64,000 bases of DNA from Pseudomonas abietaniphila. Its GTDB lineage: Bacteria > Pseudomonadota > Gammaproteobacteria > Pseudomonadales > Pseudomonadaceae. Where the stretch lies: contig NZ_CP155619.1 of the NCBI RefSeq assembly GCF_039697315.1, positions 682,001-746,000 on the forward strand. The letters are read 5' to 3'. Made by a program: the position numbers and the translations under genes. This document shows, piece after piece, positions 15,928-35,809 of the stretch. How positions within the stretch are numbered: position 1 is the stretch's first letter; every line of letters starts with the position of its first letter. The notes beneath the pieces are model-generated. The model was given only the letters and a program-made list of their open reading frames with translations. It made no database searches and was not told the origin of the DNA.

Positions 15928-18666
15928 TCAGTAGTCGGTGTTGCCGTCGTAGTCGGCGTTACCGGTACTGTCGTCGACGCTTTCATCCTGATCGAAGATA
16001 CCGCCAGTCTTGACCGCTGGCAGCGCCACTTTGACCGAGTTCAGCGCCGAGCGTGGCAGCGGGTTACTGGTGGTGGTCGACAGTTCCTGACGGAACGAGT
16101 TGACCAGTTTGGCGTTGAGACGGAGGTCGTCCGACGCCGCGCCCACGCTGAGGTTGAAGGTGTCGGCATCGATAACCCACTGCTTGCTGGTGTCGTCGTA
16201 GTAAGCCAGCGAACGGTCATTGAGTTCGATGGTGACGTGACGGGTTTCGCCCGGCTGCAGGAAGACCTTCTTGTAACCCTTGAGCTCTTTGACGGCGCGC
16301 TCGACTTTCGGGTTCTGTTGACCGACATACAGCTCGGCGACTTCTGAACCGGCGCGCTTGCCGCTGTTGGTGAGGTCGAACGAGACCTTGATCGGCGTGT
16401 TGCCCACCGCAACACCCGGGGTGACCGAGATGTTGTTGTAGGTGAACTGGGTGTACGACAGGCCGTGACCGAAGGCAAACAGCGGTTTGGTGCCGGTCTT
16501 GTCGTAACCGCGATAGCCGAGCATCGTCAGGTCATTCTTGTAGCTGATTTCTTTCAGTGTGCGGGTGTTGTCGAAGTGCGGGAAATCCGCATACAGCGGG
16601 TTGTCTTCGATGTTGCGTTCGATACTGATCGGCAGTTTGCCCGACGGGTTGACCTTGCCGAAGAGGATCTCGGCCAGCGCCTGACCGCCGTTCTGACCCG
16701 GATAGAACGCATGCAGCGCGGCCGGAACCTGATCGATCCAGTCGCTCATCTTCAAGCCCGTACCGCCGTGCATGGTGACGATGGTGTTCGGGTTGGCCTT
16801 GGCGATGTTCTGGATCAGTTCGTTCTGGTACTCAGGCAGGTCGAAGCTGTGGTCAAACCCTTCGCCTTCGTATTCGGCGCTGTTACCGACGGCAACGACC
16901 ACCGCGTCGTACTTGGACAGGTCCTGCGGCGCGGCCAGCGAAGCCCAGGCCATCTGCACGCCGACCAGCCCGCCCATGGTGGACAGGTAACCGTCGCGGC
17001 GCGAGTACTCCAGCTTCACGTCATAGGCTTTGCCCGCTTCGAGCTTGATCTTGCCCGACACGGGAATGGTTGGGGGAATGCTCTTGTTGGTGATGTTCTC
17101 GCCATCGCCGTTGTCGATGATCTTTTCACCGTTGACCCACAGACGGACAGCACCGTCAGCGCGGACCTTGAAGACCTGCTCGCCACTGGTGACGGGCTTC
17201 ATCTGGCCGCTCCAGCGGATCGAGGTGTTGGCCGTGTCGCCGTTGCTCGGCAGGTCATCGGTGGACCAGTCCATGTCGACGTGGGTGTCGATGCGGGTGG
17301 CCGACGGGTCACCGGACCAGTTGGCGTTGGTGAAGAACTCGGTCTTCAGACCGGCGACCGCGTTGCCTTTGCTGTCAGTGGTGGTCCAGTTCGATGCGGC
17401 CGGATCCAGCGACAGGCCGTCGAGGAACTCGACCTTGGCGCCAGGGGCGATTTGCTGCAGGCCGCTCAGCTCACTGACGTAGTGAGTGGCGTCTACGTGC
17501 GCACTGCCGAAACCGGTCGGTGGCGCGTACTTGGCCAGATCGCCGACCACGGCAATGCGTTTGACCTTGGCCTTGTCCAGCGGCAGGACGTCGTTCTGGT
17601 TTTTCAGCAGCACGATGCCTTCACGGGCGATGTTCAGCGCAACCTTGTTGCTGGTGGCGCTGTTCATGTTGTGGGTGGTCAGCGGTGCGAATTTGTCGAA
17701 CTGGTACAGGTAGATGTTCTTGAGGATGCGGCGGACCTTGTCATCGATGGTCGCCATGTCCAGCTCGCCACTGTCCAGGTACGGCTTGAGCACCGAGCTG
17801 TTCATCTGCCCGCCCATCATGTCCAGGTCGGACCCGGCCTGAGCGGCTGGCAGACCATGCACGATGGCGTTGTAGTCGCTCTGCACCAGCCCTTTGAAGC
17901 TCCATTCCTTTTTCAGAATGTCAGCAATCAGGTGCTTGTTTTCGCACGCGTACTCGCCGTTTACCTTCTGGAACGAGCACATCATCATCGCGACGGTGCT
18001 GTTCTTGGTGGCCGATTCGAACGGCGGCAAGGTCATCTCGCGCAGCACCCTCTCGGGCATGACCTGATTGAGGATAAAACGGTTGGTCTCCTGATCGTTA
18101 CCCGCATAGTGCTTGGCTTCGGCCCAGACACGACGTTGCTGAATACCGTTGATCACCGCAGGGCCCAGGCTGGCACCGAGGAAAGGGTCTTCGCCGGAGA
18201 GGTATTCGAAGGCGCGACCGCTCCATGGCATGCGATAGAGGTTCATGCCTGGGCCGGTGACGAACTGATAGCCACCGGTGGCGGTGTCATAGCCCAGTGC
18301 GCGACCGAAGTCGATGGCGCGACGCGGGTTGAACGTGGCGGCCAGGTTCGGACCCGACGGATAGACCACGCCTGGATCGTTGCCTTCGCTGGTGTAACGG
18401 ATACCGGCGCCGCCGTCGGCACCATGGATCTGAGGGACGCCGTACTGAGACAACGGTTTGACGTCCCACCCGCCGATCCCGCCGATGTAGGCCAGCTTTT
18501 CTTCCTGGGTCATCTTCGCCAGGGTTTTCTCAGCGGCCTTGTCGGCACGGACCTCTTTGGCCGCCAACTGCTCTTGAGTCGTGGTCTGTGCCGCGTTGGC
18601 ATGACCGATTGCCAGACTCAACAGCGCCAATGCCGAATGAGCACCTAAAGTTCTACGGGTTCGCAT
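15928..18666 (-). CDS. Secreted GH3 beta-glucosidase with PA14 domain
   Basis: 912 residues from the ATG at 18666, which begins a clear signal peptide (LALLSLAIGHANAAQ) and has GGAG 11 bases upstream. The GH3 N-terminal barrel carries the QSDYNA nucleophile motif. The alpha/beta domain is interrupted by a PA14 domain (from AGLKTEFFTNANWSGDP to about GGLVGVQMAW), and the acid/base region reads EYEGEGFD. A fibronectin-III-like domain (GSEVAELYVGQQNPKVER) closes the fold, followed by an unusual acidic, Asp/Gly-rich tail. It should hydrolyse beta-glucosides or other beta-linked oligosaccharides outside the cytoplasm. It lies next to the secretion operon and could be a substrate, but no gene order proves that. 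Confidence 0.93.
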   Translation of the reverse strand: MRTRRTLGAHSALALLSLAIGHANAAQTTTQEQLAAKEVRADKAAEKTLAKMTQEEKLAYIGGIGGWDVKPLSQYGVPQIHGADGGAGIRYTSEGNDPGVVYPSGPNLAATFNPRRAIDFGRALGYDTATGGYQFVTGPGMNLYRMPWSGRAFEYLSGEDPFLGASLGPAVINGIQQRRVWAEAKHYAGNDQETNRFILNQVMPERVLREMTLPPFESATKNSTVAMMMCSFQKVNGEYACENKHLIADILKKEWSFKGLVQSDYNAIVHGLPAAQAGSDLDMMGGQMNSSVLKPYLDSGELDMATIDDKVRRILKNIYLYQFDKFAPLTTHNMNSATSNKVALNIAREGIVLLKNQNDVLPLDKAKVKRIAVVGDLAKYAPPTGFGSAHVDATHYVSELSGLQQIAPGAKVEFLDGLSLDPAASNWTTTDSKGNAVAGLKTEFFTNANWSGDPSATRIDTHVDMDWSTDDLPSNGDTANTSIRWSGQMKPVTSGEQVFKVRADGAVRLWVNGEKIIDNGDGENITNKSIPPTIPVSGKIKLEAGKAYDVKLEYSRRDGYLSTMGGLVGVQMAWASLAAPQDLSKYDAVVVAVGNSAEYEGEGFDHSFDLPEYQNELIQNIAKANPNTIVTMHGGTGLKMSDWIDQVPAALHAFYPGQNGGQALAEILFGKVNPSGKLPISIERNIEDNPLYADFPHFDNTRTLKEISYKNDLTMLGYRGYDKTGTKPLFAFGHGLSYTQFTYNNISVTPGVAVGNTPIKVSFDLTNSGKRAGSEVAELYVGQQNPKVERAVKELKGYKKVFLQPGETRHVTIELNDRSLAYYDDTSKQWVIDADTFNLSVGAASDDLRLNAKLVNSFRQELSTTTSNPLPRSALNSVKVALPAVKTGGIFDQDESVDDSTGNADYDGNTDY

Positions 18667-18922
18667 GATAAACAACTCTCCAGATATCGCCTGCGCGCAA
18701 ATGCCGCAGTTGACACGCCACAACCCTTTTATTCAGGGCAATAGATCGCCTATACCGAAGTTCCAGAACGAAACAGCGGACAAAGAAAAGTGACGCACCC
18801 GCAAGCAAAAACTTGGGCGACAGGTTAGGTAAAACCAAAGTTACTGGCACTGCGCCAGTTAAAAACGCGGCAGACCTCCGCGCCATTTAAATTAAGGCAA
18901 TTGTTTTTAGTTGAAGTCAAAC

Positions 18923-18953
18923 AAAAATATCGACATTGAAAAATATCGACATT
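18923..18953. repeat. Tandem 15-bp direct repeat
   Basis: AAAAATATCGACATT occurs at 18923-18937 and again, identical, at 18939-18953, giving a 16-base period. Two in-phase copies about 260 bases upstream of the GH3 start and 180 bases upstream of the small secreted gene look like a binding site for a direct-repeat-recognising activator. Confidence 0.7.
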
Positions 18954-18977
18954 TTTTGATACACACGCTGAACTCTC

Positions 18978-19053
18978 GCTAAACCAACAGGTCTGTAGGT
19001 TTAGCAAAAATGATCAAGACCTGCCTGAACCCCTTTAGATACGGGGCTTTTTT
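18978..19053 (+). ncRNA. Candidate structured leader or small RNA
   Basis: GCTAAACC (18978-18985) pairs with GGTTTAGC (18998-19005) around a 12-base loop. The loop's CAGGTC can alternatively pair with GACCTG further on (near 19018-19023). CCCC (19030-19033) then pairs with GGGG (19043-19046) followed by CTTTTTT. Two mutually exclusive helices before a T-tailed hairpin resemble a small RNA or an attenuator for the small secreted gene downstream. The terminator stem is only 4 bp, so the call is tentative. Confidence 0.3.
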
Positions 19054-19135
19054 CGAGCAGAAGCACCAAAACAGAGCCCTCCCTCCTCGGAGCGAGATCA
19101 TTTCAACACGGGTACATACACTGGAAAATCATCAT

Positions 19136-19363
19136 ATGAAATTGCCATTACTTGGTGCCGTTGCCGCCATGACATTCGCAATCGCCACCACCACAATGGC
19201 GGCAGAATCAAGCACTCAGGATTCCGCATCTGCCGCTCCTGACTCCACCGTTATGACACAAACGAAAAATGTAAAAGCCGAAACGAAACAGCATAAGCAA
19301 GTTCAGGCCGATGAAAACAAGCGGGGTCGCCCTGCCGCGTCATCTTCAAAGTCGGCTAACTAA
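19136..19363 (+). CDS. Small exported Lys/Gln-rich protein
   Basis: 75 residues. The N-terminus is a clear signal peptide (LLGAVAAMTFAIATTTMAAE, cleavage after MAA), followed by about 52 residues rich in Ser, Thr, Lys, Gln and Asp with no Cys and no aromatic residue: an intrinsically disordered, basic periplasmic or secreted peptide. The upstream frame is open, but the signal peptide fixes the start here. The Shine-Dalgarno sequence is poor. I do not recognise a family. It lies directly before the secretion operon, separated by a strong hairpin. Confidence 0.6.
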   Translation: MKLPLLGAVAAMTFAIATTTMAAESSTQDSASAAPDSTVMTQTKNVKAETKQHKQVQADENKRGRPAASSSKSAN

Positions 19364-19387
19364 TACACCCAACTTTATTTATTAATC

Positions 19388-19426
19388 ACGAACGAGGGGG
19401 ACTGAAAAGAGTCCCCCTCTGTTCGT
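19388..19426 (+). terminator. Long hairpin between the small exported gene and gspE
   Basis: ACGAAC plus GAGGGGGACT pairs with AGTCCCCCTC plus GTTCGT around a GAAAAG loop: 10 perfect pairs, then one bulged T, then 6 more. No T tract follows. The helix ends only 19 bases before the GTG of gspE, so it could end the upstream transcript, protect an mRNA end, or limit access to the gspE start. Confidence 0.6.
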
Positions 19427-19445
19427 CGCTACTTGAAGCCTCGTC

Positions 19446-21170
19446 GTGTCCGATACGTTAAATCCTGTCCACCTTGATCACCTGACCGGGCATTCGTCAG
19501 ATGTGTTGTGTGCCTGGTTAATGGTCCATGCCGGGCTCAAATCAGCCGATCTGGACCGGGCACGGCGAATCACGCAGGAATCGGCAGGCAGTTCATTGAC
19601 CGAGATGCTGACGCGTCTTGGCCTGGTGTCCGAACTGGACCTGGCCCGGGCGTGGGCATCGACCCTTGAAGCACCGTTACTGATCGCCGACGCCGTTCCC
19701 CTTCCCGCCGATGCCTTGCCCTCATTGAGTGAGCGCTTTATGCGTCACCATCGTCTGCTGCCCATCGGCTGCCACGCGAACGGCGTCCATGTGCTGGCGG
19801 CCAATCCTGGCAATGCATACGGCCTGGAGGCGGTGCGCTATGCCTGCCAGACACCGGTGTATGTGTCGGTGGGACTGTCCAGCGAAGTGGACGGCCTGAT
19901 CGAACGGTTCTACGGTCAGGGCCGTTCGGCAATGGGTTCGCTGATCGAGACGATGGACGATGTCGGTGGCGCAGAGGAAGACATCGAGCACCTCAAGGAC
20001 CTGGCTTCCGAAGCCCCGGTCATCCGCTTGGTTAACCTGATTCTGCAGCGCGCGGTCGAGCAACGCGCTTCGGACATCCATATAGAACCCTTTGAAAGCC
20101 AGCTGAAAGTGCGTTACCGCATCGATGGCGTGCTGCACGAAGCCGAAGCCCCGCCGTCCAGTTCGTCCGCCGCCATCATTTCGCGTCTCAAAATCATGGC
20201 CCGGCTGGACATCGCCGAACGTCGTCTGCCTCAGGACGGGCGGATCATGCTGCGAATCCAAGGCAAGGAACTGGACCTGCGGGTGAGTACGGTGCCCACC
20301 AGTTTCGGCGAATCGGTGGTCATGCGCCTGCTCGACCGCCAGACCGTGAGTTTCGATTTTCCCAGCCTCGGCATGGACGGCGAACGCCTGCAGAACTTTC
20401 TCGACGTGCTGGAAAACCCCCACGGCATCCTCTTGGTGACCGGCCCGACCGGATCGGGCAAGACCACCACCCTGTACACCGCGCTGTCGCGCCTGAATAC
20501 CGCCGAACGCAAGATCATCACCGTCGAAGACCCGGTTGAATACCAACTGGAGGGCATCAACCAGATTCAGGTGAAGCCTTCCATAGGCCTCGACTTCGCC
20601 GGAGCACTGCGCTCCATCGTGCGCCAGGACCCGGACGTCATCATGATCGGCGAGATGCGCGACCTGGAAACCTGTCGCATCGCGATCCAGTCCTCGCTCA
20701 CCGGCCACCTGGTGCTGTCCACCCTGCACACCAACAGCGCGGCGGCGAGTATCACCCGTCTGCTCGACATGGGGGTCGAGAGCTACCTGATCGCGTCGAC
20801 CGTCAAAGGCATTCTGGCTCAGCGTCTGGTGCGCCGCCTCGACCCTGTGACGCGCATCGCGTTTGAGGCACCGGCCGAACTGATTGTCGAACATGGCCTG
20901 GAACGCTTCACCGAACAGCGGCCGATCATTCTGTACCGGCCAGCCAGTGAACTGCCCGGCGGTGGTTATCACGGCCGCAGCGCGATCACTGAATTGCTGG
21001 TGATGAACGAAGAGCTTCGCAGCCTGCTGATGCGCCAGGCCGATGCCGCGACACTGGAACAGGCGGCCCGGCGCGGTGGACTGCGCACCTTGTATGAAGA
21101 AGGCCTGCGCCAGGCGGTCGCCGGTGTGACCTCGCTCGAAGAGGTGCTGCGCGTCACGCGCGGCGATTGA
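19446..21170 (+). CDS. gspE: Type II secretion ATPase GspE
   Basis: 574 residues, starting at GTG. The N-terminal MshEN-like region (about 1-160) would contact GspL. The motor domain has Walker A GPTGSGKTT at 333-341, the Asp box, Walker B DPDVIMIGEMRD and the His box. It powers pseudopilus assembly from the cytoplasmic face. An oddity: the zinc-binding CM domain that normally has four cysteines is present by length (from about LAQRLVRRLDP to GYHGRSAITELL) but contains no cysteine at all. It is the first gene of an eleven-gene operon with mostly overlapping stops and starts. Confidence 0.96.
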   Translation: MSDTLNPVHLDHLTGHSSDVLCAWLMVHAGLKSADLDRARRITQESAGSSLTEMLTRLGLVSELDLARAWASTLEAPLLIADAVPLPADALPSLSERFMRHHRLLPIGCHANGVHVLAANPGNAYGLEAVRYACQTPVYVSVGLSSEVDGLIERFYGQGRSAMGSLIETMDDVGGAEEDIEHLKDLASEAPVIRLVNLILQRAVEQRASDIHIEPFESQLKVRYRIDGVLHEAEAPPSSSSAAIISRLKIMARLDIAERRLPQDGRIMLRIQGKELDLRVSTVPTSFGESVVMRLLDRQTVSFDFPSLGMDGERLQNFLDVLENPHGILLVTGPTGSGKTTTLYTALSRLNTAERKIITVEDPVEYQLEGINQIQVKPSIGLDFAGALRSIVRQDPDVIMIGEMRDLETCRIAIQSSLTGHLVLSTLHTNSAAASITRLLDMGVESYLIASTVKGILAQRLVRRLDPVTRIAFEAPAELIVEHGLERFTEQRPIILYRPASELPGGGYHGRSAITELLVMNEELRSLLMRQADAATLEQAARRGGLRTLYEEGLRQAVAGVTSLEEVLRVTRGD

Positions 21171-21172
21171 TC

Positions 21173-22375
21173 ATGGCCCATTTCAAATACCGCGCACTGG
21201 ACGCCGATGGCGTCGCGCAGAACGGCACGCTGGAAGCGAGCGATCAGAACGCCGCAGCGGCGATCCTGCAAAAGCGCGGTCTGTTGCTGCTCAGTCTGGA
21301 AGCCGGCACTCACAGCGGACTCGGCGGCGTCATGCGTCGCAGCGTGCTGAACGGCGCTGCGCTGGTCAGCTTCACCCAACAACTGGCGACCCTGATCGGT
21401 GCGGGCCAACCGCTGGAGCGGGCACTGGGCACATTGCTCAGGCAACACCACGACACCAAGCGCCAGGCGTTGTTTGAGCGGGTACGCGAGCAGGTCAAGG
21501 CGGGCAAGCCGTTGAGCCAGGCGCTGGAAGAAGAGCACGGGGAATTTTCCAGCCTCTATATCAGCATGGTCCGGGCCGGTGAGGCCGGCGGCTCGCTGGA
21601 AAACACGCTGCGTCAACTCAGCGATTACCTGGAACGCAGCCAGAAGCTGCGCGGCGAAGTGATCAACGCGCTGATCTACCCGATCTTTCTGGTGGTGGGC
21701 GTTCTCGGCTCACTGGCCCTGTTGCTCGCTTATGTGGTGCCGCAATTCGTGCCGATCTTTCGCGACCTGGGCGTTCCCATTCCATGGATCACCCAGGCCA
21801 TTCTCGGACTGGGTGAGTTCTTGAGCGCCTACGGCCTCGTCCTGTTGGGAGCCCTCGTGGCGACGATCTGGAGCGTCGCGGTCTTGCGGCGCGATCCCCA
21901 ACGACGACAACGACACGACCGCCGCGTGCTGTCACTGAACATCATCGGCCCACTGCTGCAGCGCATCGAAGCCGCACGGCTGGCCCGAACGCTGGGCACC
22001 TTGCTGAGCAATGGTGTCGCTCTGCTCCAGGCCATGAACATTGTTCGCCAGGTCTGTGGCAACCACGCCCTGCGCGCTCAGGTTGAGCAAGCGACGGACT
22101 GGGTCAAAGGCGGCGGCACGCTGGCCCAGGCGTTTGGCGAACAACCGCTGCTGCCGGAACTGGCGCTGCAGATGATCGAAGTCGGCGAACAGGCCGGCAA
22201 CCTCGACAGCATGCTGCTCAAGGTCGCCGACGTTTTCGATGTCGAGGCCAAGCGTGGCATCGACCGCATGCTCGCCGCGCTGGTTCCCAGTCTGACCGTG
22301 GTCATGGCCGTCATGGTCGCGGTGATCATGCTGGCCATCATGCTCCCGCTGATGAGCCTGACCAGTAACATTTGA
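21173..22375 (+). CDS. gspF: Type II secretion inner-membrane platform protein GspF
   Basis: 400 residues. Two homologous cytoplasmic helical domains (LVSFTQQLATLIGAG and its partner ARLARTLGTLLSNGV) alternate with three membrane spans (about LIYPIFLVVGVLGSLALLLAYV, the 210-235 region, and the C-terminal VVMAVMVAVIMLAIMLPL). This is the standard T2SF layout. It anchors GspE and GspL/M during pseudopilin assembly. The ATG at 21173 is 2 bases after the gspE stop; a TTG overlapping that stop is less likely. Confidence 0.96.
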   Translation: MAHFKYRALDADGVAQNGTLEASDQNAAAAILQKRGLLLLSLEAGTHSGLGGVMRRSVLNGAALVSFTQQLATLIGAGQPLERALGTLLRQHHDTKRQALFERVREQVKAGKPLSQALEEEHGEFSSLYISMVRAGEAGGSLENTLRQLSDYLERSQKLRGEVINALIYPIFLVVGVLGSLALLLAYVVPQFVPIFRDLGVPIPWITQAILGLGEFLSAYGLVLLGALVATIWSVAVLRRDPQRRQRHDRRVLSLNIIGPLLQRIEAARLARTLGTLLSNGVALLQAMNIVRQVCGNHALRAQVEQATDWVKGGGTLAQAFGEQPLLPELALQMIEVGEQAGNLDSMLLKVADVFDVEAKRGIDRMLAALVPSLTVVMAVMVAVIMLAIMLPLMSLTSNI

Positions 22376-22385
22376 GGACACACAC

Positions 22386-22811
22386 ATGACTCGATTCAAA
22401 CCCGTCCATGGCCGTCGCCAAGGCGGCTTCACCCTGTTGGAAATGCTCGCGGTAATCGTCCTGCTGGGCATCGTCGCTACCATCGTCGTGCGCCAGGTCG
22501 GCGGCAACGTCGACAAGGGCAAGTACGGCGCAGGCAAGGCCCAGTTGGCGAGCCTGAGCATGAAGATCGAAAGCTACGGCCTGGACGTCGGTTCGCCGCC
22601 GGCCAACCTCCAGCAACTGGTGACTAAACCCGCCAATGCCACCGGTTGGGCGGGTCCCTACGCGAAACAGTCCGACCTCAAGGACCCGTTCGGCCACGCC
22701 TTCGGTTACCGCTTCCCCGGCGAGCACGGCAGCTTCGACCTGATTTTCTTCGGCCAGGACGGTCAGCCAGGCGGCGACGGCTACAAGGCCGACCTGGGTA
22801 ACTGGGAATAA
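22386..22811 (+). CDS. gspG: Major pseudopilin GspG
   Basis: 141 residues. A short basic leader ends at the prepilin peptidase site GG-FTLLEM, with the conserved Glu5 of the mature protein. The hydrophobic helix is followed by a globular domain ending in the GspG calcium-loop segment (FGQDGQPGGDGYKADLGNW). It polymerises into the periplasmic pseudopilus. No prepilin peptidase gene is in the window, so a PilD encoded elsewhere must process it. Confidence 0.96.
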   Translation: MTRFKPVHGRRQGGFTLLEMLAVIVLLGIVATIVVRQVGGNVDKGKYGAGKAQLASLSMKIESYGLDVGSPPANLQQLVTKPANATGWAGPYAKQSDLKDPFGHAFGYRFPGEHGSFDLIFFGQDGQPGGDGYKADLGNWE

Positions 22812-22812
22812 C

Positions 22813-23250
22813 ATGCACGCCCTGCCCCGCGCCCGCGGCTTTACCCTGTTCGAACTGCTGGTGGTGATCGTGCTGATCGGCATCAGCGTCGGCCTGGTGG
22901 GCTTTGGCGTGGGCAAGGGTCTGCACGCCGCCAGCGAACGCCGCGCCTTAAGCGAGGTGGTGCAGGCACTGCGTGCAGCGCGGGTTCAGGCGATCGTCAC
23001 CGGGCAACCGGCGCAAACGCGTTTCGATCTGAAGGACGGGCGTTTTCAGGGGCCGCAGCAAAAAGCCAGGCAACTGCCCAGCGACATGCACGTCCAGCTG
23101 CAGACGGCCGACGGACTGGGCCCGGCCTTCGAGTTCTACCCCGACGGCGGATCGAGCGGCGGGCACCTGTTGCTGACGCGGGATGACAAGCGTTGGCGGG
23201 TCGACATCAACTGGCTCACGGGCAACGTTCAGTTGCGCACGCTCAATTGA
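22813..23250 (+). CDS. gspH: Minor pseudopilin GspH
   Basis: 145 residues. Prepilin site RG-FTLFELLVVIVLIG, hydrophobic helix, then the GspH beta-rich domain with the HLLLTRDDKRWRVDINWLTG C-terminal strands. A pseudopilus-tip-associated subunit. The start codon comes one base after the gspG stop. Confidence 0.92.
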   Translation: MHALPRARGFTLFELLVVIVLIGISVGLVGFGVGKGLHAASERRALSEVVQALRAARVQAIVTGQPAQTRFDLKDGRFQGPQQKARQLPSDMHVQLQTADGLGPAFEFYPDGGSSGGHLLLTRDDKRWRVDINWLTGNVQLRTLN

Positions 23251-23615
23251 GCGCCGAGCGCGGGTTCACGCTGCTGGAGATGCTCGCTGCCCTCGCAGTG
23301 CTGGCGGTGTGCAGCAGCGTGCTGGTGGTCGCGTTCGGTCAGAGCGCCCGCGCCCTGCAACAGGCGCAACGCAGCGATCTGTTGAGCCTGACCGCGCGCT
23401 CGTTGATGGACGAAGCCATCGCGGGTCGCTTGCAGGCCGGCGTCACACAAGGGCGATGGTCCGGCGTGAGCTGGCGGTTGAACGTCAGCGCGTTGCCCGC
23501 TGCCAACGCGCCGCTGGATACCTGGCGGCTGGACCTGGACGTCAATGACGGGGCTCGACAGGCGCACTACAGCACGCTTCAGGTGCGCAGCGCAGGCTCG
23601 GGGGCGGGCCGATGA
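23247..23615 (+). CDS. gspI: Minor pseudopilin GspI, TTG start
   Basis: 122 residues. The reading begins at TTG 23247, in the overlap TTGA with the gspH stop, and at once gives MSAERG-FTLLEMLAALAVLAV, a normal prepilin signal. A GTG or ATG further upstream would add an unlikely charged leader inside gspH. Translation probably couples to gspH. The short globular part ends WRLDLDVNDGARQ..., as in the GspI family. Part of the tip complex I-J-K. Confidence 0.9.
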   Translation: MSAERGFTLLEMLAALAVLAVCSSVLVVAFGQSARALQQAQRSDLLSLTARSLMDEAIAGRLQAGVTQGRWSGVSWRLNVSALPAANAPLDTWRLDLDVNDGARQAHYSTLQVRSAGSGAGR

Positions 23616-24223
23616 TCCGTCGGGCGCAAGGCTTCACTTTGCTGGAAGTGCTGGTGGTGCTGAGCCTGCTCGGCGTGCTGCTGACCCTGATCGGGGGCGC
23701 AATCACGGGTGCCAATCGGGCCATGGGCAAGGCCGAACGCTACAGCACGCGACTGGACGAAGTGCGCTCGACGCAAAACTTTCTGCGCACTGCCGTTGGC
23801 CAGGCCCTGCCCTTGGCGGCAGGCGCCCCGGGAGTGGAGCCATCGCCGGTATTCGTTGGCGAGTCGCACCGCATGAGTTTTTACGCGCCGCTCGTGGCCA
23901 CCCTCGGCGGTGGCATATATCGATACAGCGTCTCGCAGGCACCGGGACAACGCTTGCAGGTGAGTCTGGAGCGGTTGCGTGATCAAGGCTTGTTGCCGGC
24001 GGATGAACCGCAGGTGTTGCTGCATCAGGTGCAGGACGTGCAGTTCAGCTACCGCGGGATCTCGCCCAAGGGTGAGGCAACGGACTGGCTGGATCACTGG
24101 CCCTGGCCCGGGCGACTGCCAGTGAGCGTACGCGTCGATGCGCAACTGGCCGGCCCCGTACCGTGGCCGTTGCAAAGCATCGACCTGCGCCTGGACTTGT
24201 CGTCCGAGGCGCGCACGTTATGA
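23612..24223 (+). CDS. gspJ: Minor pseudopilin GspJ
   Basis: 203 residues. Prepilin site QG-FTLLEVLVVLSLLG and a two-lobed beta domain typical of GspJ (LRDQGLLPADEPQVLLHQVQDVQFSYRG, in part). ATGA overlap with gspI. It joins GspI and GspK in the pseudopilus tip. Confidence 0.92.
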   Translation: MIRRAQGFTLLEVLVVLSLLGVLLTLIGGAITGANRAMGKAERYSTRLDEVRSTQNFLRTAVGQALPLAAGAPGVEPSPVFVGESHRMSFYAPLVATLGGGIYRYSVSQAPGQRLQVSLERLRDQGLLPADEPQVLLHQVQDVQFSYRGISPKGEATDWLDHWPWPGRLPVSVRVDAQLAGPVPWPLQSIDLRLDLSSEARTL

Positions 24224-24942
24224 ACCGCGAGCGCGGCGTGGCGCTGCTGTTGGTGCTGTGGGTCCTGGCGCTGCTGGGCACCTTGCTCGCCGGCCTTCTG
24301 GGTTGGGTGCATCTGCAGAACCGTCAGGCGCTGTGGCAGCGCCAGCATACCCAGGCGGTGCTGGCCGCTGAAGCGGGAGTGGGCATGGCCGTGCTGGCGC
24401 AGCTGGACCGCGATCCGCTACGCCGCTGGAAGGCTGACGGTCAGCCGCATGCCCTGCGATTCGACGACGCGTCGTTGGCGGTAAGCGTGACCAGCGAGGC
24501 CGGAAAGCTGGACCTCAACGCTGCGCCGGTCGAGTCGTTTGCCCGGCTGGTGCTGGCGTGCGGCGGATCGAGGGAGCAATCGGCGGACCTGTCGCAAGCG
24601 CTGAACCAGCGCCGGGGCGGTGACCGCGCCCCGCTGCGCACGATCGAGGAAGTTCGAGAATTGCCAACCATGGACCAGCGGCTTTACAGCTGTGCCAGTG
24701 CGCAGTTGACCTTGTGGAGCGGTCTGCCCGCTCCCGATCCGCGACTGGCCTCGCCCTGGTTGCGGCGTGCCCTGAACCTGCCTCAGGGCGGCGCAATCAC
24801 CGGCGATGCAGGCCCTGTGATCACCGTACACAGCCAGGCGACATTGCCCGGCGGCTTTACCACGACGCTGAGCGTCACGCTGTTACTGAACCCATCGAAG
24901 GAGGGTGCCAGGCCTTACCGGGTCCTGCGCTGGCAAGAATGA
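24220..24942 (+). CDS. gspK: Minor pseudopilin GspK, short form
   Basis: 240 residues against about 300-330 in most systems. Leader RERG-VALLLVLWVLALLG: as in other GspK proteins there is no Glu at position 5. The family motif DLNAAP is at about residues 110-115, followed by a helical region with LPTMDQRLYSC. The shortening falls in the helical SAM-like part. ATGA overlap with gspJ. GspK caps the pseudopilus tip. Confidence 0.9.
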   Translation: MNRERGVALLLVLWVLALLGTLLAGLLGWVHLQNRQALWQRQHTQAVLAAEAGVGMAVLAQLDRDPLRRWKADGQPHALRFDDASLAVSVTSEAGKLDLNAAPVESFARLVLACGGSREQSADLSQALNQRRGGDRAPLRTIEEVRELPTMDQRLYSCASAQLTLWSGLPAPDPRLASPWLRRALNLPQGGAITGDAGPVITVHSQATLPGGFTTTLSVTLLLNPSKEGARPYRVLRWQE

Positions 24943-25970
24943 AGCATTTATCTTTCAAACGGCTCGCCCCGCTCCACGCCAGCCTTCACAGTCAATGGCG
25001 TAGCAGCCGCGCACAACAACTGTGGCGCGCCTGGCTGAACGAGCTGCAGGCCCTGCTGCCCGCTCCCGTTCGTGCGCGTTTGCTGCCGCAGGTGCGCGAA
25101 CGGCTGATCGACTGGCCACTGCCCGTCCCGATCGATGAGCGCCACGATGAGCGTGTGGTGCTGGTCTTGCCCGCGAGCATGATGCTGGTTCAGACGTTGT
25201 TATTGCCGACGGCTGCCGTGCGTGATCTGCACAACGTCATCGGCTTCGAGCTCGACAAATACACGCCCTACCCCCGCGATCAGATGCAGTACGTCGCGCG
25301 GGTTATCGGTAAGGAAGGCGCGCTCGCGCAAGTGATGCTGGTCGCGGTTTTGCGTGAACGTCTGCAGCCAGCGCTCGATGCCTGCAACGCACAGGGCCTG
25401 GCCCTGCATGCCGTCGATGGCCGCGATGCACAGGGTCGCAGGCTGGGCGTCGACCTGTTGCCCGCCGGGCAGCAGCCGCCCCGCCGGGGACGTGCGCGGC
25501 TGCCACGTTATCTGGCGCTGGTCTGCTGCGCGCTGCTGGTGAGCTGCATGGTGCTCTGGCTGAACGCCCGCAGTGCCATGGTCGACGCCATGCGCAGCAG
25601 CGTCGATGAACAACGCACACAGGTCCAGGCCGTGCAAAACCTGCGGCGGGAATTGATCAACACCCAGGGTGCCGCCCGTTATCTGGCCCAGCAGAAAGCC
25701 GCTCAACCCACGCTGTCCAGCGTGCTGGTGGACCTCACCGGATGTCTGGGGGCTGACACCTGGGTCGAGCAGCTCGAAATCGCCGACGGTGGAGGTGTTT
25801 CCCTCTCCGGACAAAGCGCCAAGGCCAGCGCACTGATAACCCGCATGAAGGACTGCAAGACCCTGAGTGACGCCCAGTTCCAAGGGATCATCCAGCCCGA
25901 TGCGCAGACCGGCAAAGAGCGCTTTTCCCTGAGAGCGCACCTGCGCAAGGAGGTCGTCGATGCGCCGTGA
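24939..25970 (+). CDS. gspL: GspL, inner-membrane assembly protein with PilN-like domain
   Basis: 343 residues, shorter than the roughly 400 of typical GspL. The cytoplasmic part contains FELDKYTPYPRDQ (103-115), a motif shared with PilN-type proteins. A single membrane span covers about 190-209, and a periplasmic coiled-coil and ferredoxin-like domain follows. It recruits GspE to the membrane and pairs with GspM. The start overlaps the gspK stop as ATGA. Confidence 0.88.
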   Translation: MKHLSFKRLAPLHASLHSQWRSSRAQQLWRAWLNELQALLPAPVRARLLPQVRERLIDWPLPVPIDERHDERVVLVLPASMMLVQTLLLPTAAVRDLHNVIGFELDKYTPYPRDQMQYVARVIGKEGALAQVMLVAVLRERLQPALDACNAQGLALHAVDGRDAQGRRLGVDLLPAGQQPPRRGRARLPRYLALVCCALLVSCMVLWLNARSAMVDAMRSSVDEQRTQVQAVQNLRRELINTQGAARYLAQQKAAQPTLSSVLVDLTGCLGADTWVEQLEIADGGGVSLSGQSAKASALITRMKDCKTLSDAQFQGIIQPDAQTGKERFSLRAHLRKEVVDAP

Positions 25971-26616
25971 ACTGACCCCTCGAGAACGCCGTGGCGCGGC
26001 ATTGATCGTCCTCGCCTTATTGCTATGGGTCGCGTGGTGGTTGCTGGTGCAGAGCTGGTTCCTCGACCCGCTGAACGCCCTCGACGAGCAGGCCGATACG
26101 CTGCGCGCACAGCAACAGCGCTACGCCGCCATCCTGCAACAACGCGACGGCCTGGAGCAGCAGTTGCAGGCAGCGCGCCGTGATCCGTCCAGCCGCACCA
26201 GCCTGCTACCCGGCGAAGACCCCAGCGCCGTGGCGGCTGACCTGATGCAGCGCAGTCTCGATCTGGTGAAGGCCCACGCCGATCAGGGCCCCGGCTGCCA
26301 GGTCACGCAACGCATGCCGATCACCCCTGAGCACGACAGCGCCGAGCCTTATCGCCAGGTGAAAGTCAGCCTGACACTGGAGTGCGCCATGGAGCCGCTC
26401 GCCAACCTGCTGCATGACGTCGAATACGGGCAACCGTTTCTGTTCGTCGACAACCTGAGCCTGCGCCGCGCGACCTCCGCGCCCGCCAGCGGCGGGGCCG
26501 GCCGGTTACAGGTGCACCTGTTGCTGCGCGGCTATCTGCAACAGCCACCAGCGTCGTCGGCTCGGGAAAAACAGCCTGAACAACCGCCCGCACCCGGCGA
26601 GGAGCCCGACGCATGA
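25960..26616 (+). CDS. gspM: GspM, inner-membrane partner of GspL
   Basis: 218 residues. A short basic N-terminus, one membrane span (about residues 13-32, ALIVLALLLWVAWWLLVQSW), a coiled coil rich in Gln, and a ferredoxin-like periplasmic domain with the FVDNLSLRR strand. The C-terminal tail is Pro/Glu-rich. It overlaps gspL by 11 bases. Identified by topology, position and the typical LLHDVEYGQPFLFVDNL segment. Confidence 0.88.
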   Translation: MRRELTPRERRGAALIVLALLLWVAWWLLVQSWFLDPLNALDEQADTLRAQQQRYAAILQQRDGLEQQLQAARRDPSSRTSLLPGEDPSAVAADLMQRSLDLVKAHADQGPGCQVTQRMPITPEHDSAEPYRQVKVSLTLECAMEPLANLLHDVEYGQPFLFVDNLSLRRATSAPASGGAGRLQVHLLLRGYLQQPPASSAREKQPEQPPAPGEEPDA

Positions 26617-27128
26617 GGTTCGACACCCTGACCCTGACGTTGCTGGCGAGCACCGCCCTGTTGACCGCAGCGGCCGTCAGCCTGGCCATGGGCGCCGGGC
26701 AGACTGTCGACTGGCTACCGGCGAGCGCAACCCGCGAAGCCGCGCCTGCCGCCAAGCCCCCGACACTGTCGCCCCTGTCGGCCCAGGCCCTGTCGCTGAC
26801 CTGGCAGCAGTCGATGTTCAGCCCGGATCGCAAAGGCGATCTGGCCATCGGGAAACATCAGGCCTCCTCCCTCGACGGCATCAGCCTCAGCGGCGTAATC
26901 ATCGACGGTCAAGCCCAGTGGGTGCTGTTGCGCATGCCGGATAAACACAACCTGAAACTGGCCGTCGGCAGCTCCCTCGATAACGGCTGGACCCTGACCG
27001 CTGCCACGCCCCAGCAAGCCACCTTCAGCCACCAGGGACAGACCCGCGAACTGCGCCTGCCCCTGCTTCGACTTCCACCGCCTTCGAAGGCGCCCCTTAT
27101 TACCCTTCCAGACGTACCCACACCATGA
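26613..27128 (+). CDS. gspN: GspN/GspC-like inner-membrane protein
   Basis: 171 residues. One N-terminal membrane span, a Pro/Ala-rich linker, then a homology-region-like domain: FSPDRK, GISLSGVIIDGQAQWVLLR, and a GWTLTAATPQQATF strand. That pattern matches the HR domain of GspC and of the small XpsN-type protein. No other GspC candidate is present, so it likely links the inner-membrane platform to the secretin. ATGA overlaps with both neighbours. The name gspN follows gene position. Confidence 0.75.
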   Translation: MRFDTLTLTLLASTALLTAAAVSLAMGAGQTVDWLPASATREAAPAAKPPTLSPLSAQALSLTWQQSMFSPDRKGDLAIGKHQASSLDGISLSGVIIDGQAQWVLLRMPDKHNLKLAVGSSLDNGWTLTAATPQQATFSHQGQTRELRLPLLRLPPPSKAPLITLPDVPTP

Positions 27129-29419
27129 ACAATCGCTACCTTGAGTTTCCCCGTTTGCGCAGCCCTCTGTTTTGTCTGGCTACCGCAGTCGCACTGGCCG
27201 GTTGTGCCAGCACGCCGGAGCACTTTGAAAACGACCCGGCACTGATGCAGGAAGCACTCGATGGTACAGGCTCGCAACGAGCTCCCCTGACCGAACCGGC
27301 ACCCTTGACGAACCCGTCGAACGCGAGCGCCAGGGCGGTGCCGCGCCAGCAGATCATTCGTGGCACTCAGACATTCGTGCACAGCCCGGGCACGGCGGCA
27401 GGCGCAAACGGCCCGGCGCAAGCGATCGGCGATATCGTCTTCAACTTCACCAATCAGCCCATCGAGGCGGTGATCAACAGCGTGATGGGCGACCTGCTGC
27501 ACGAAAACTACAGCATTGCCCAAGGCGTCAAAGGCGACGTGAGCTTTTCCACCTCCAAGCCGGTAAACAAGCAACAGGCGCTGTCGATTCTGGAAACCCT
27601 GCTGTCGTGGACCGACAACGCCATGATCCGTCAGGGCGACCGTTATGTGATCCTCCCCGCGAATCAGGCGGTGGCCGGTAAGCTGGTCCCCGAAATGCCC
27701 GTGGCGCGACCTTCCAGCGGGCTTTCCGCGCGGCTGTTTCCGCTGCACTACATCTCGGCGACAGAGATGCAGAAGCTGCTAAAACCCTTCGCGCGGGACA
27801 ACGCGTTCCTGTTGGTCGATCCGGGTCGCAACGTGCTCAGCCTCGCCGGTACGCCGGATGAACTGGCCAACTATCAGGACACCATCGACACCTTCGATGT
27901 CGACTGGCTCAAAGGCATGTCGATCGCTGTCTATGGGCTGCAACGTGCGACCGTCGGCGAGCTGATGCCTGAACTGAAGAAGATGTTCGGCCCCGACAGC
28001 GGCATGCCCATGGCAGGCATGGTGCGCTTTCTGCCCATCGACCGAACCAACTCGGTGGTGGCGATTTCCGCGCAACCGCGCTACCTGAGTGAAGTCGGTG
28101 ACTGGATTCATACCATCGACGAGGGCGGCGGCAACGAACCCCAGATGTACGTGTATGACGTGCGCAACATGAAGGCCTCCGACCTGGCTAAATACCTGCG
28201 TCAGATCTACGGCAACGGACAGATCAAGGATGACAGCGCCGCCAGGGTGGCGCCCGGCTTGCGCACACGCTCGCTGTCGTCGCTCAATGGCAACGGTAGC
28301 AGCGCGGGCGGCATGGGACTGAGCGGCACCGGTCAGGGAATGGGCTCGGGCGCCGGGATGGGCGTGAGCGGCAGCAACGGCAGTCTGCAGAGCGGCATGC
28401 AGCAGAACGAGGAAGAGACGGACGACGAGCCAACCGATGATAACGCCGGCGGCGTCGAAGGCACCGACAGCGAGACGGCCAGCTCAGACTCCGGTGCCAG
28501 CAAACGACTGGACGACAGCACCCGCATCACTGCACAGAAAAGCAGCAATCAGTTGCTGATCCGCACCCGTCCCGCGCAATGGGCGGAGATCGAGTCTGCC
28601 ATCAAGCGACTGGACAACGCGCCGATGCAGGTGCAGATCGAAACGCGGATTCTGGAAGTCAATCTGAGCGGTGAACTGGACCTGGGCGTGCAATGGTATC
28701 TCGGCAAACTGGCCGGTAACTCCGGCAGCACCACCGTCGCCAATGCCTCCGGCAGTCAGGGCGCGTTGGGCGGCGGCGGAGCCGGACTGGGCGCCACTGA
28801 CTCGCTGTTCTATTCGTTCGTCAGCAACAACCTGCAAGTGGCGCTGCATGCGCTTGAAACCAATGGCCGCACCCAAGTGCTGTCAGCGCCTTCGCTGGTG
28901 GTCATGAACAACCAGCAGGCGCAGATTCAGGTCGGCGACAACATCCCCATCAGCCAGACCACGGTCAACACCAACGTGTCCAACACGACGTTGAGCAGCG
29001 TCGAATACGTTCAGACCGGGGTCATCCTCGACGTGGTGCCGCGCATCAACCCGGGTGGACTCGTCTATATGGACATCCAGCAGCAGGTGAGCGACGCCGA
29101 CAACACTGCCGCTTCCGACAGCAACGGCAACCCGCGCATCTCCACCCGCTCGGTGTCGACGCAAGTCGCGGTGCAGAGTGGACAGACCGTCCTGCTCGGC
29201 GGGCTGATCAAGCAGGACAACAGCGACACCGCCTCATCCGTGCCCTACCTGGGCCGCATACCGGGATTGCGCTGGTTGTTTGGCAGCACGAGCAAAAGCA
29301 AGAAACGCACGGAGCTGATCGTGCTGATCACCCCGCGCGTGGTCACCAGCAACAGCCAGGCCCGACAGGTGACCGATGACTATCGCCAGCAGTTACAGTT
29401 GATCAAGCCGACGCTGTAA
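27125..29419 (+). CDS. gspD: Lipoprotein secretin GspD
   Basis: 764 residues. Signal peptide ends in the lipobox LAGC with Cys27; the +2 residue is Ala, not Asp, so outer-membrane targeting is expected. N0-N3 domains follow, then the secretin core (VPYLGRIPGLRWLFG and ELIVLITPRVV). Between N3 repeats there is a long Gly/Ser-rich stretch that passes into an acidic Glu/Asp/Thr stretch (about residues 383-455). It forms the outer-membrane channel. Self-lipidation explains why no pilotin gene is present. It is the last gene before a strong terminator. Confidence 0.96.
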   Translation: MNNRYLEFPRLRSPLFCLATAVALAGCASTPEHFENDPALMQEALDGTGSQRAPLTEPAPLTNPSNASARAVPRQQIIRGTQTFVHSPGTAAGANGPAQAIGDIVFNFTNQPIEAVINSVMGDLLHENYSIAQGVKGDVSFSTSKPVNKQQALSILETLLSWTDNAMIRQGDRYVILPANQAVAGKLVPEMPVARPSSGLSARLFPLHYISATEMQKLLKPFARDNAFLLVDPGRNVLSLAGTPDELANYQDTIDTFDVDWLKGMSIAVYGLQRATVGELMPELKKMFGPDSGMPMAGMVRFLPIDRTNSVVAISAQPRYLSEVGDWIHTIDEGGGNEPQMYVYDVRNMKASDLAKYLRQIYGNGQIKDDSAARVAPGLRTRSLSSLNGNGSSAGGMGLSGTGQGMGSGAGMGVSGSNGSLQSGMQQNEEETDDEPTDDNAGGVEGTDSETASSDSGASKRLDDSTRITAQKSSNQLLIRTRPAQWAEIESAIKRLDNAPMQVQIETRILEVNLSGELDLGVQWYLGKLAGNSGSTTVANASGSQGALGGGGAGLGATDSLFYSFVSNNLQVALHALETNGRTQVLSAPSLVVMNNQQAQIQVGDNIPISQTTVNTNVSNTTLSSVEYVQTGVILDVVPRINPGGLVYMDIQQQVSDADNTAASDSNGNPRISTRSVSTQVAVQSGQTVLLGGLIKQDNSDTASSVPYLGRIPGLRWLFGSTSKSKKRTELIVLITPRVVTSNSQARQVTDDYRQQLQLIKPTL

Positions 29420-29471: not shown

Positions 29472-29504
29472 AAAAAAAAACCGCCCATCCAGGGCGGTTT
29501 TTTT
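29472..29504. terminator. Bidirectional terminator between gspD and the transketolase operon
   Basis: CCGCCC (29481-29486) and GGGCGG (29492-29497) flanked by nine A before and seven T after. It serves gspD on the plus strand and the transketolase C-subunit gene on the minus strand. Confidence 0.92.
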
Positions 29505-34834: not shown

Positions 34835-35809
34835 ATGATGAATCAGGACAGTCACTCGAACGATCTGGCACACCATACGGCGTTCAACCAGACCTTTCAG
34901 CAAGGCCAGTTAACCATCGGCTTTATTTCGCCCGCCTGTGGTTACCCGGACAGTCCCTTCCCGAGCCTGTCGGATCAAGCCGAAATCGTCCAGCGCCTTG
35001 ACCAGAGTGATGCTGCGACGCTGTGGCTGCGCGATGTGCCCTTTTACGATCCGTCATTTGGGGATACCGGCCAGGTGCTGGACCCACTGGTGTATGCCGG
35101 CTGGCTGGCAGCGCTGACCCACCGGATCGCGATCGGCACGGCCGGAATCGTCACGCCATTGCGCGAACCCGTCATCACCGCCAAGCAGATCGCCAGCGCG
35201 GATCAGCTATTGGGTGGCCGCTTTCTCGCCGGCATGGCCTCGGGTGACCGGCCCGCCGAATACCCGGCCTTCGGGGTCGATTTCACGAGCCGTGTGGAGC
35301 GCTATCAAGAAGCGATCACCTTGGTGAAGACCTTGACGTCAGAGTCATTCCCTGGCCTGCAGACCCGGCATTTCGGTCAATTGCGAGGGGACATCGACCT
35401 CGTGCCCAAACCGGCGGCGACCCGTATTCCCATCGTTGCCATCGGCCGTGCTGGCCAGACGCTGGAATGGCTCGCGGGAAATGTCGATGCATGGATCTGG
35501 CACGGCGACCCGATGCGCATGACAGCCGCCGTAGCCCATTGGCGCGAAGCGACCGAGACGCGAGGATTTGTCCCGTTCGGCTATGGCGCAATGTTCGACC
35601 TGGACGTCGATCCCGATGCACCTCTGCAAACGGGAAGAATGCTTAGAGGGGGTCGACACGCACTCAAGGACTTCCTGGCGAGTCAACGCGAGTCCGGAAT
35701 CAACCACGTTGCCCTGAACCTCAAGCCTACCCGACGCCCTGCGCTGGACGTCATCGATGAACTGCAAACGCACATTCTTCCCGAGTTCGCGGTGTCGCCT
35801 GGTCAATAA
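34835..35809 (+). CDS. LLM class flavin-dependent oxidoreductase
   Basis: 324 residues of the bacterial luciferase-like monooxygenase fold. LTIGFISPACG and GTAGIVTPLREPVITAKQ form early barrel strands, and RFLAGMASGDRPAEYPAFG holds the GxGxG-like phosphate loop region. Such enzymes use FMNH2 and oxygen, or F420 in other phyla. GGGG lies 5 bases before the ATG pair at 34835/34838. It is transcribed away from the LysR 33747 gene and converges with LysR 35855; no reductase partner lies beside it. Substrate unknown. Confidence 0.88.
   Translation: MMNQDSHSNDLAHHTAFNQTFQQGQLTIGFISPACGYPDSPFPSLSDQAEIVQRLDQSDAATLWLRDVPFYDPSFGDTGQVLDPLVYAGWLAALTHRIAIGTAGIVTPLREPVITAKQIASADQLLGGRFLAGMASGDRPAEYPAFGVDFTSRVERYQEAITLVKTLTSESFPGLQTRHFGQLRGDIDLVPKPAATRIPIVAIGRAGQTLEWLAGNVDAWIWHGDPMRMTAAVAHWREATETRGFVPFGYGAMFDLDVDPDAPLQTGRMLRGGRHALKDFLASQRESGINHVALNLKPTRRPALDVIDELQTHILPEFAVSPGQ

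Follow-up and report, generated by a model that had tools for sequence, protein, structure and literature searches.

A predicted Xps-type type II secretion system linked to a GH3 glycosidase gene in Pseudomonas abietaniphila

Gene content of the cluster

The DNA analyzed here (the window, 64,000 nucleotides) corresponds to positions 682001-746000 on a single 6.55-Mb contig of Pseudomonas abietaniphila and carries a type II secretion system (T2SS) cluster that appears to be of the Xanthomonas Xps type. Eleven complete genes lie on the + strand at 19446-29419 in the order gspE-F-G-H-I-J-K-L-M-N-D, as an earlier note on this sequence had described, and stop and start codons overlap at most junctions of the gspE-gspD operon. 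The first gene, gspE/xpsE (19446..21170), encodes a 574-aa ATPase with a degenerate MshEN domain (TIGR02533 over cut-off, tree, and motif check), followed by gspF/xpsF for the inner-membrane platform (21173..22375; TIGR02120 over cut-off) and gspG/xpsG for the major pseudopilin (22386..22811; TIGR01710 over cut-off). Minor pseudopilins are encoded by gspH/xpsH (22813..23250; Pfam GspH over cut-off, XpsH model below its own), gspI/xpsI (23232..23615, start uncertain; N-terminus RGFTLLEML and profile), gspJ/xpsJ (23612..24223; PRK08808 GspJ model and Pfam T2SSJ, both below cut-off), and gspK/xpsK (24220..24942; Pfam PilX_N below cut-off, and profile). The operon continues with gspL/xpsL (24939..25970; Pfam T2SSL over cut-off), gspM/xpsM (25960..26616; NF040576 T2SS_GspM_XpsM over cut-off), and gspC (xpsN/xpsC; 26613..27128), whose 171-aa product comprises one membrane helix, a linker, and an HR domain. 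It ends with gspD/xpsD (27125..29419; TIGR02517 over cut-off, N-terminus, and tree), encoding a 764-aa secretin with the lipobox LAGC at Cys27. The start codons of F (21173), K (24220), L (24939), and, with uncertainty, I (near 23232) are given as read in this analysis. A terminator-like hairpin with a T-run was identified by eye 3' of gspD (29481..29504, + strand).

Five of the predicted products passed curated NCBIfam cut-offs: GspE (score 646 against 630), GspF (456 against 424), GspG (101 against 89), GspD (462 against 351), and GspM (165 bits against 60 on the XpsM model NF040576). Pfam cut-offs were met by H and L (H fell under its NCBIfam cut-off), J and N gave sub-cut-off matches to T2SS or Xps models, and I and K were called from pilin-type N-termini, position, and profiles built in this analysis. 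In a test for T2SS core components, the platform proteins GspC, GspL, and GspM and the minor pseudopilins H-K were all present; the GspC call rests on fold and position, and those of I, J, and K on weak model matches combined with position and pilin-type N-termini. Strict NCBIfam Xps models remained under their cut-offs (XpsF 427 of 650, XpsH 98 of 160, and XpsN 20.5 of 400 bits); hence, we use the label "Xps-type" and not Xps itself. Some of these signals are shared with a type IV pilus or pilus-like system, as GspE also scores on PilB models and finds PilB as its best solved-structure matches, and the GspC fold also resembles PilP. However, GspE, F, G, M, and D exceed T2SS cut-offs, GspE is under the PilB cut-off, and pilB-pilC-pilD-like genes (together at L016; from the order of open reading frames [ORFs] and their N-termini) and pilMNOPQ-like genes are present elsewhere in the genome, making a pilus machine extremely improbable.

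The earlier note had described a small GspN/C-like protein instead of a separate GspC. While the 171-aa protein is present, fold comparison indicates a membrane helix and an HR domain, as expected if this is the actual GspC of the cluster and not a substitute for one, which is the most likely reading. Identity as GspN was ruled out by fold, and gspN is stated to be absent from Xanthomonas (available text of PMC12802150). Neither a prepilin peptidase gene nor a separate pilotin gene was seen within the cluster, which agrees with the earlier note. Because the secretin itself carries a lipobox, it may not require a pilotin. Among Xps secretins, 88 of the 100 from Pseudomonas and 8 of the 9 from Xanthomonadaceae show the lipobox pattern; among non-Xps secretins, it occurs in 5/7 Hxc-like, 1/5 Xcp, and 0/16 other-type sequences.

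Control by c-di-GMP through the MshEN domain of GspE was considered and set aside, as several key residues are not conserved. The window GspE has S, T, W, and T at MshE positions R38, G40, L58, and Q61, and MshE R9 and G11 are also missing (by eye), although Q32, L39, G47, and L54 are retained. It lacks the two RLG...LxxxLxxQ motifs by which c-di-GMP-binding MshEN domains are recognized; the accessible part of the paper defining them reports that X. campestris GspE has likewise lost c-di-GMP binding (PMC5013675).

Typing, distribution, and known relatives

Trees constructed by a quick method from 86 GspE rows and 93 GspD rows were anchored by L278 (94.9% identity to the N-domain of X. campestris XpsE, 2d27) and L220 (74.6% identity to XcpQ, 5wln). 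In both trees, a branch with a value of 100 separates the Xps-type rows from those of the Xcp, Xcp2, 650-aa, and Hxc-like groups. A single clade unites all but two of the 31 Pseudomonas Xps rows, and it groups with nine Xanthomonadaceae rows and L193 (branch values of 100 for GspE and 99 for GspD). Approximately unbiased (AU) tests on 40 chosen GspE rows, with groups B and C named once the first trees were known, rejected two alternative placements of the window GspE: among the Hxc-like rows of Pseudomonas, at p 0.003, and among the rows of the Xcp, Xcp2, and 650-aa types, at p 3e-36. Membership in Xcp or Hxc is accordingly ruled out by the GspE and GspD trees and the AU tests, and the tree comparison that the earlier note had proposed came out in favor of its Xps typing. 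The labels "Hxc-like" and "650-aa type" stand without a named anchor sequence, the former being assigned from secretin length and lipobox. The Xcp2 and 650-aa-type Pseudomonas groups are apart from the window in both trees, among whose rows there was no named Xcm anchor. Judged from sequence, the cluster is thus a complete Xps-type T2SS (core E, F, G-K, L, M, C, and D), and its typing is supported.

Two groups of rows were observed in passing. The two Pseudomonas rows outside the main clade (L237 and L238, from G423 and G382) represent a separate, distant Xps-type lineage, with neighboring genes that look by eye like polysaccharide export and a lipoprotein-like gene after gspD. Rows L214-L218 form a Pseudomonas T2SS group with ~650-aa secretins that is apart from the Xcp and Hxc-like groups in both trees.

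XpsM exceeded its cut-off in 36 of 370 genomes across the class, in 54 of 60 genomes in the family of G147 (taken for Xanthomonadaceae because member G503 matches 2d27), and in 32 of 119 Pseudomonas genomes. A scan of named genomes gave 160 encoding stretches, and the 80 kept were all titled Pseudomonas. Together, these counts and loci show that the Xps type is common in Pseudomonas. The eleven-gene order was complete in 46 of the 80 named loci, while 31 were without one or two genes and 3 without three or more, missing genes being judged from ORF calls.

The Xps system of X. euvesicatoria, as presented in the available text of PMC11981180, is encoded in the order E-F-G-H-I-J-K-L-M-C(N)-D, where the former N is now called XpsC, and its cluster lacks gspA, gspB, a pilotin gene, and a prepilin peptidase gene. 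The order in the window is that of Xanthomonas Xps, as the earlier note had recognized. Both also share an XpsM-type GspM, a lipobox secretin, and neighboring clades in both trees. In contrast, the Pseudomonas rows are a separate clade, and Pseudomonas GspC proteins are shorter (~171-176 aa, 171 aa in the window, versus ~260 aa) and without the C-terminal (2P) region of XpsC. The window additionally has a GH3 glycosidase gene and a small gene upstream of gspE. Hxc of P. aeruginosa resembles the cluster in the lipobox of most Hxc-like secretins but differs in gene order and tree side, whereas Xcp of P. aeruginosa shares core T2SS components but is separate in the trees (XcpQ 5wln anchor), mostly lacks the lipobox, and has D before or apart from E instead of last.

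Within Pseudomonas, the T2SS cluster of P. syringae pv. tomato DC3000 likewise ends in gspM, gspN, and gspD (PMC9436044). The accessible sections of that paper give it neither an Xps-type label nor a GH3 link, and we infer that it is of the same type. They report reduced disease for gspD or gspE mutants and, citing other work, name PlcA1 and PlcA2 as substrates. Loci of the P. syringae group (e.g., L080 and L090) were found with the window secretin and have the GH3 and small genes. Loper et al. (2012) described a fourth, "novel" T2SS in P. fluorescens Sub-clade 3, which differs from the Xcp- and Hxc-related systems there (available text of PMC3390384); many Xps-type loci carry P. fluorescens-group names and may represent this system. 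A survey's T2SS model at default settings missed an Xps-type system, according to the consulted portion of PMC4793230. The machine is therefore of a known kind, probably one already studied in P. syringae. None of the titles and abstract openings searched links a Pseudomonas Xps-type T2SS with GH3, subscription literature being mostly outside their scope. Within the literature searched, it is a combination of three points that is new here: the assignment to the Xps type, the association with the GH3 and the small protein, and the shorter GspC.

Linkage to a GH3 glycosidase and a small protein

Upstream of the operon, the window encodes a 912-aa GH3 glycosidase with a predicted signal peptide (MRTRRTLGAHSALALLSLAIGHANA; 15928..18666, - strand; called from Pfam, its translation, and linkage). 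Pfam predicts N and C domains, an inserted PA14 domain, and an Fn3-like domain, and the best solved relatives are mostly beta-glucosidases. Between this gene and the small gene is a divergent intergenic region (18667..19135), where promoters are presumed to lie.

A search of the 119 Pseudomonas genomes at E<=1e-60 returned 47 GH3 matches in 23 genomes, all of them among the 32 Xps carriers, and none at this threshold in the other 9 carriers or in any of the 87 non-carriers (Fisher p 1e-17, uncorrected for relatedness). GH3 genes lie <=12 kb from 26 of the 37 Xps GspM genes, and in all 26 cases one is upstream and divergent; 14 of the 47 matches are not near any Xps copy. After 4 of the 80 named loci were dropped owing to short upstream sequence, a GH3 was present at >=70% identity in 58 loci and below 50% in 6, with none in 12. 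Of 59 named loci whose GH3 reaches >=70% identity, 57 have a signal-like N-terminus on this enzyme, as judged by pattern. In contrast to the GH3 gene, the genes downstream of the window cluster are not conserved. Its two transketolase halves had no match in the 80 named loci, 65 of which have >=5 kb after gspD, and the best identities for the MFS and SDR genes were 39% and 30%; the luciferase-like gene at 34835 was matched in one locus, L073, at 57%. The short Xanthomonadaceae stretches gave no GH3 or small-gene match. Internal stops were observed in GH3 matches of G391, G395, G450, and G484, and the match begins only at residue 180 in L058 and at residue 55 in L080, suggesting that some lineages may no longer have the enzyme.

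The position of the GH3 beside the machine in most related loci hints at an exported cargo, a reading to which the parallel divergence of GspE and GH3 adds weight (Mantel r of 0.92 between their distances for 55 loci and 0.74 for all 61). This mostly joint inheritance would also fit inherited synteny only, with a GH3 that is periplasmic or exported by another route, and several solved relatives are named periplasmic beta-glucosidase. We consider this unlikely, given that such a GH3 is absent from all 87 genomes without an Xps GspM, that second Xps copies are likewise flanked by a divergent GH3, but not the same one, and that L082 and L093 combine a GspE near one clade with the GH3 type of another. 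This mixed pairing looks like cargo exchange. More speculatively, the shortened-GspC Xps could be a transferable one-machine-one-enzyme module in which each copy has its own divergent GH3, the cargo is swappable (as in L082 and L093), and the small proteins are a new family serving as GH3-specific adaptors or co-secreted partners; we regard this extended view as tentative and rather doubtful.

The small gene (19136..19363, + strand) lies 82 bases upstream of gspE and encodes a predicted secreted protein of 75 aa with a predicted signal peptide and a conserved core near DSTVMTQ and GRP. Its median dN/dS of 0.14 (13 close sequences compared pairwise, with a value obtained for 66 of the 78 pairs) makes it very likely a real gene. 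All 58 named loci whose GH3 reaches >=70% identity encode the protein, as against 0 of 18 others, and the sequences compared come from 59 named loci and the window. A profile search found 179 homologs (E<=0.001), and the 120 listed have no Pfam domain; those with a named organism are all from Pseudomonas and annotated as hypothetical or secreted. Between the small gene and gspE is a hairpin without a T-run (19388..19426, + strand; the fold of an 85-base stretch gave -31 kcal/mol). The counterparts of this spacer (window 19364-19445) fold strongly in most loci despite differing in sequence, as judged from single folds with no shuffled control. Such a hairpin may allow the small protein to be made in larger amounts than the machine. 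By eye, REP-like repeats were also seen in the spacers of several P. fluorescens-group loci, with matching spacers in L034, L038, L051, and L054.

Proposed role and other secretion genes in the genome

Searches of the P. abietaniphila genome detected five secretin domains and, among them, no Xcp or Hxc operon. They belong to the gspD described here, a pilQ by a pilM-like gene, one gene by a TadA-type ATPase, a cluster at ~203-210 kb, and a short protein, those other than gspD being named from neighbors and N-termini. The searches thus revealed no canonical T2SS besides the Xps-type cluster. Of the earlier note's overall interpretation, the Xps type stands, while the suggested place beside Xcp and Hxc machines finds no support in this genome.

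We propose, with a probability of roughly 0.7, that the cluster is a complete and probably functional Xps-type T2SS, with the adjacent GH3 as its probable main linked substrate and the small protein as a probable partner, both roles being suggested by gene linkage. From general T2SS knowledge, substrates would pass the inner membrane by signal peptide and fold in the periplasm, and a growing pseudopilus driven by GspE would push them through the GspD ring. PilD, encoded elsewhere, would process the pseudopilins, and GspC would join the platform to the secretin via its HR domain without the XpsC C-terminal region. A lipid anchor on the secretin itself, rather than a pilotin, would probably bring it to the outer membrane. 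The exported GH3 may release sugars outside the cell from plant or other glycosides, and the 75-residue protein is probably its partner, either co-secreted or a periplasmic helper.

Several observations weigh against so close a tie. Eleven of the 37 Xps GspM loci are without an adjacent GH3 (two of these are in G455, at contig ends), and PlcA1 and PlcA2 are already known to be secreted by the T2SS of P. syringae, which makes exclusivity unlikely. The cluster could instead be a general-purpose T2SS that exports many hydrolases and phospholipases encoded genome-wide, with GH3 as one of many, kept near by shared regulation, and we give this an even chance of being correct. It would be consistent with reports, in the available text of each source, that X. 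euvesicatoria Xps secretes degradative enzymes (PMC11981180) and that a Xanthomonas T2SS gspE mutant, not termed Xps there, loses degradation of several substrates (PMC10784570). The genome encodes one PF04185 phosphoesterase, and the lack of a second canonical T2SS here is mirrored in other carriers: another GspD exceeded the cut-off in 16 of the 32 Xps carriers and in none of 15 (a hand count from the listed matches, all others scoring under the cut-off; carrier G445 was left unjudged, as GspD was not found there). On the other hand, general use does not require what is seen in three multi-copy genomes (G389, G391, and G420, with two, two, and three Xps copies), where all 7 copies have their own adjacent GH3. 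A "dedicated" exporter, as the earlier note had suggested, is possible but probably too strong a term for the proposed GH3-linked system.

The loci without a GH3 showed no clear secreted hydrolase as a substitute substrate in an inspection by eye of ORF N-termini, with no family search, covering the upstream side of eight loci and the downstream side of six of these (longest ORFs only, so that genes may be missed). Their neighbors suggest, also by eye, LacI-type regulators, TonB-dependent receptors, and polysaccharide-export genes.

How a T2SS chooses its substrates is an unsolved problem, and the DC3000 authors state, in the available text, that substrates are not known beyond two phospholipases (PMC9436044). 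For a T2SS type carried by 32 of the 119 Pseudomonas genomes sampled, the linkage described here singles out the GH3 and the small protein as candidates that can be tested. The C-terminal region of GspC has been implicated in secreting specific substrates elsewhere (accessible part of PMC12802150), and a GspC cut to a membrane helix and HR domain offers a test of whether that region is needed at all.

Other secretion-related genes were observed in the same genome. An orphan GspE-like ATPase of 594 aa (L015 8858-10642) lies away from any T2SS seen and could, as a guess, be of the c-di-GMP-binding PA14_29490 type. The short secretin-domain protein (L017 6731-7549, near 1210159 in the genome) has 272 aa within a 279-aa open frame and only a partial secretin domain. 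The cluster at ~203-210 kb (L014, minus strand) is pilus-like and encodes a GspE-like ATPase of 583 aa, a GspM-like protein, and a 621-aa secretin; ~5 kb past it is a gene for a protein with curlin-like repeats (by eye).

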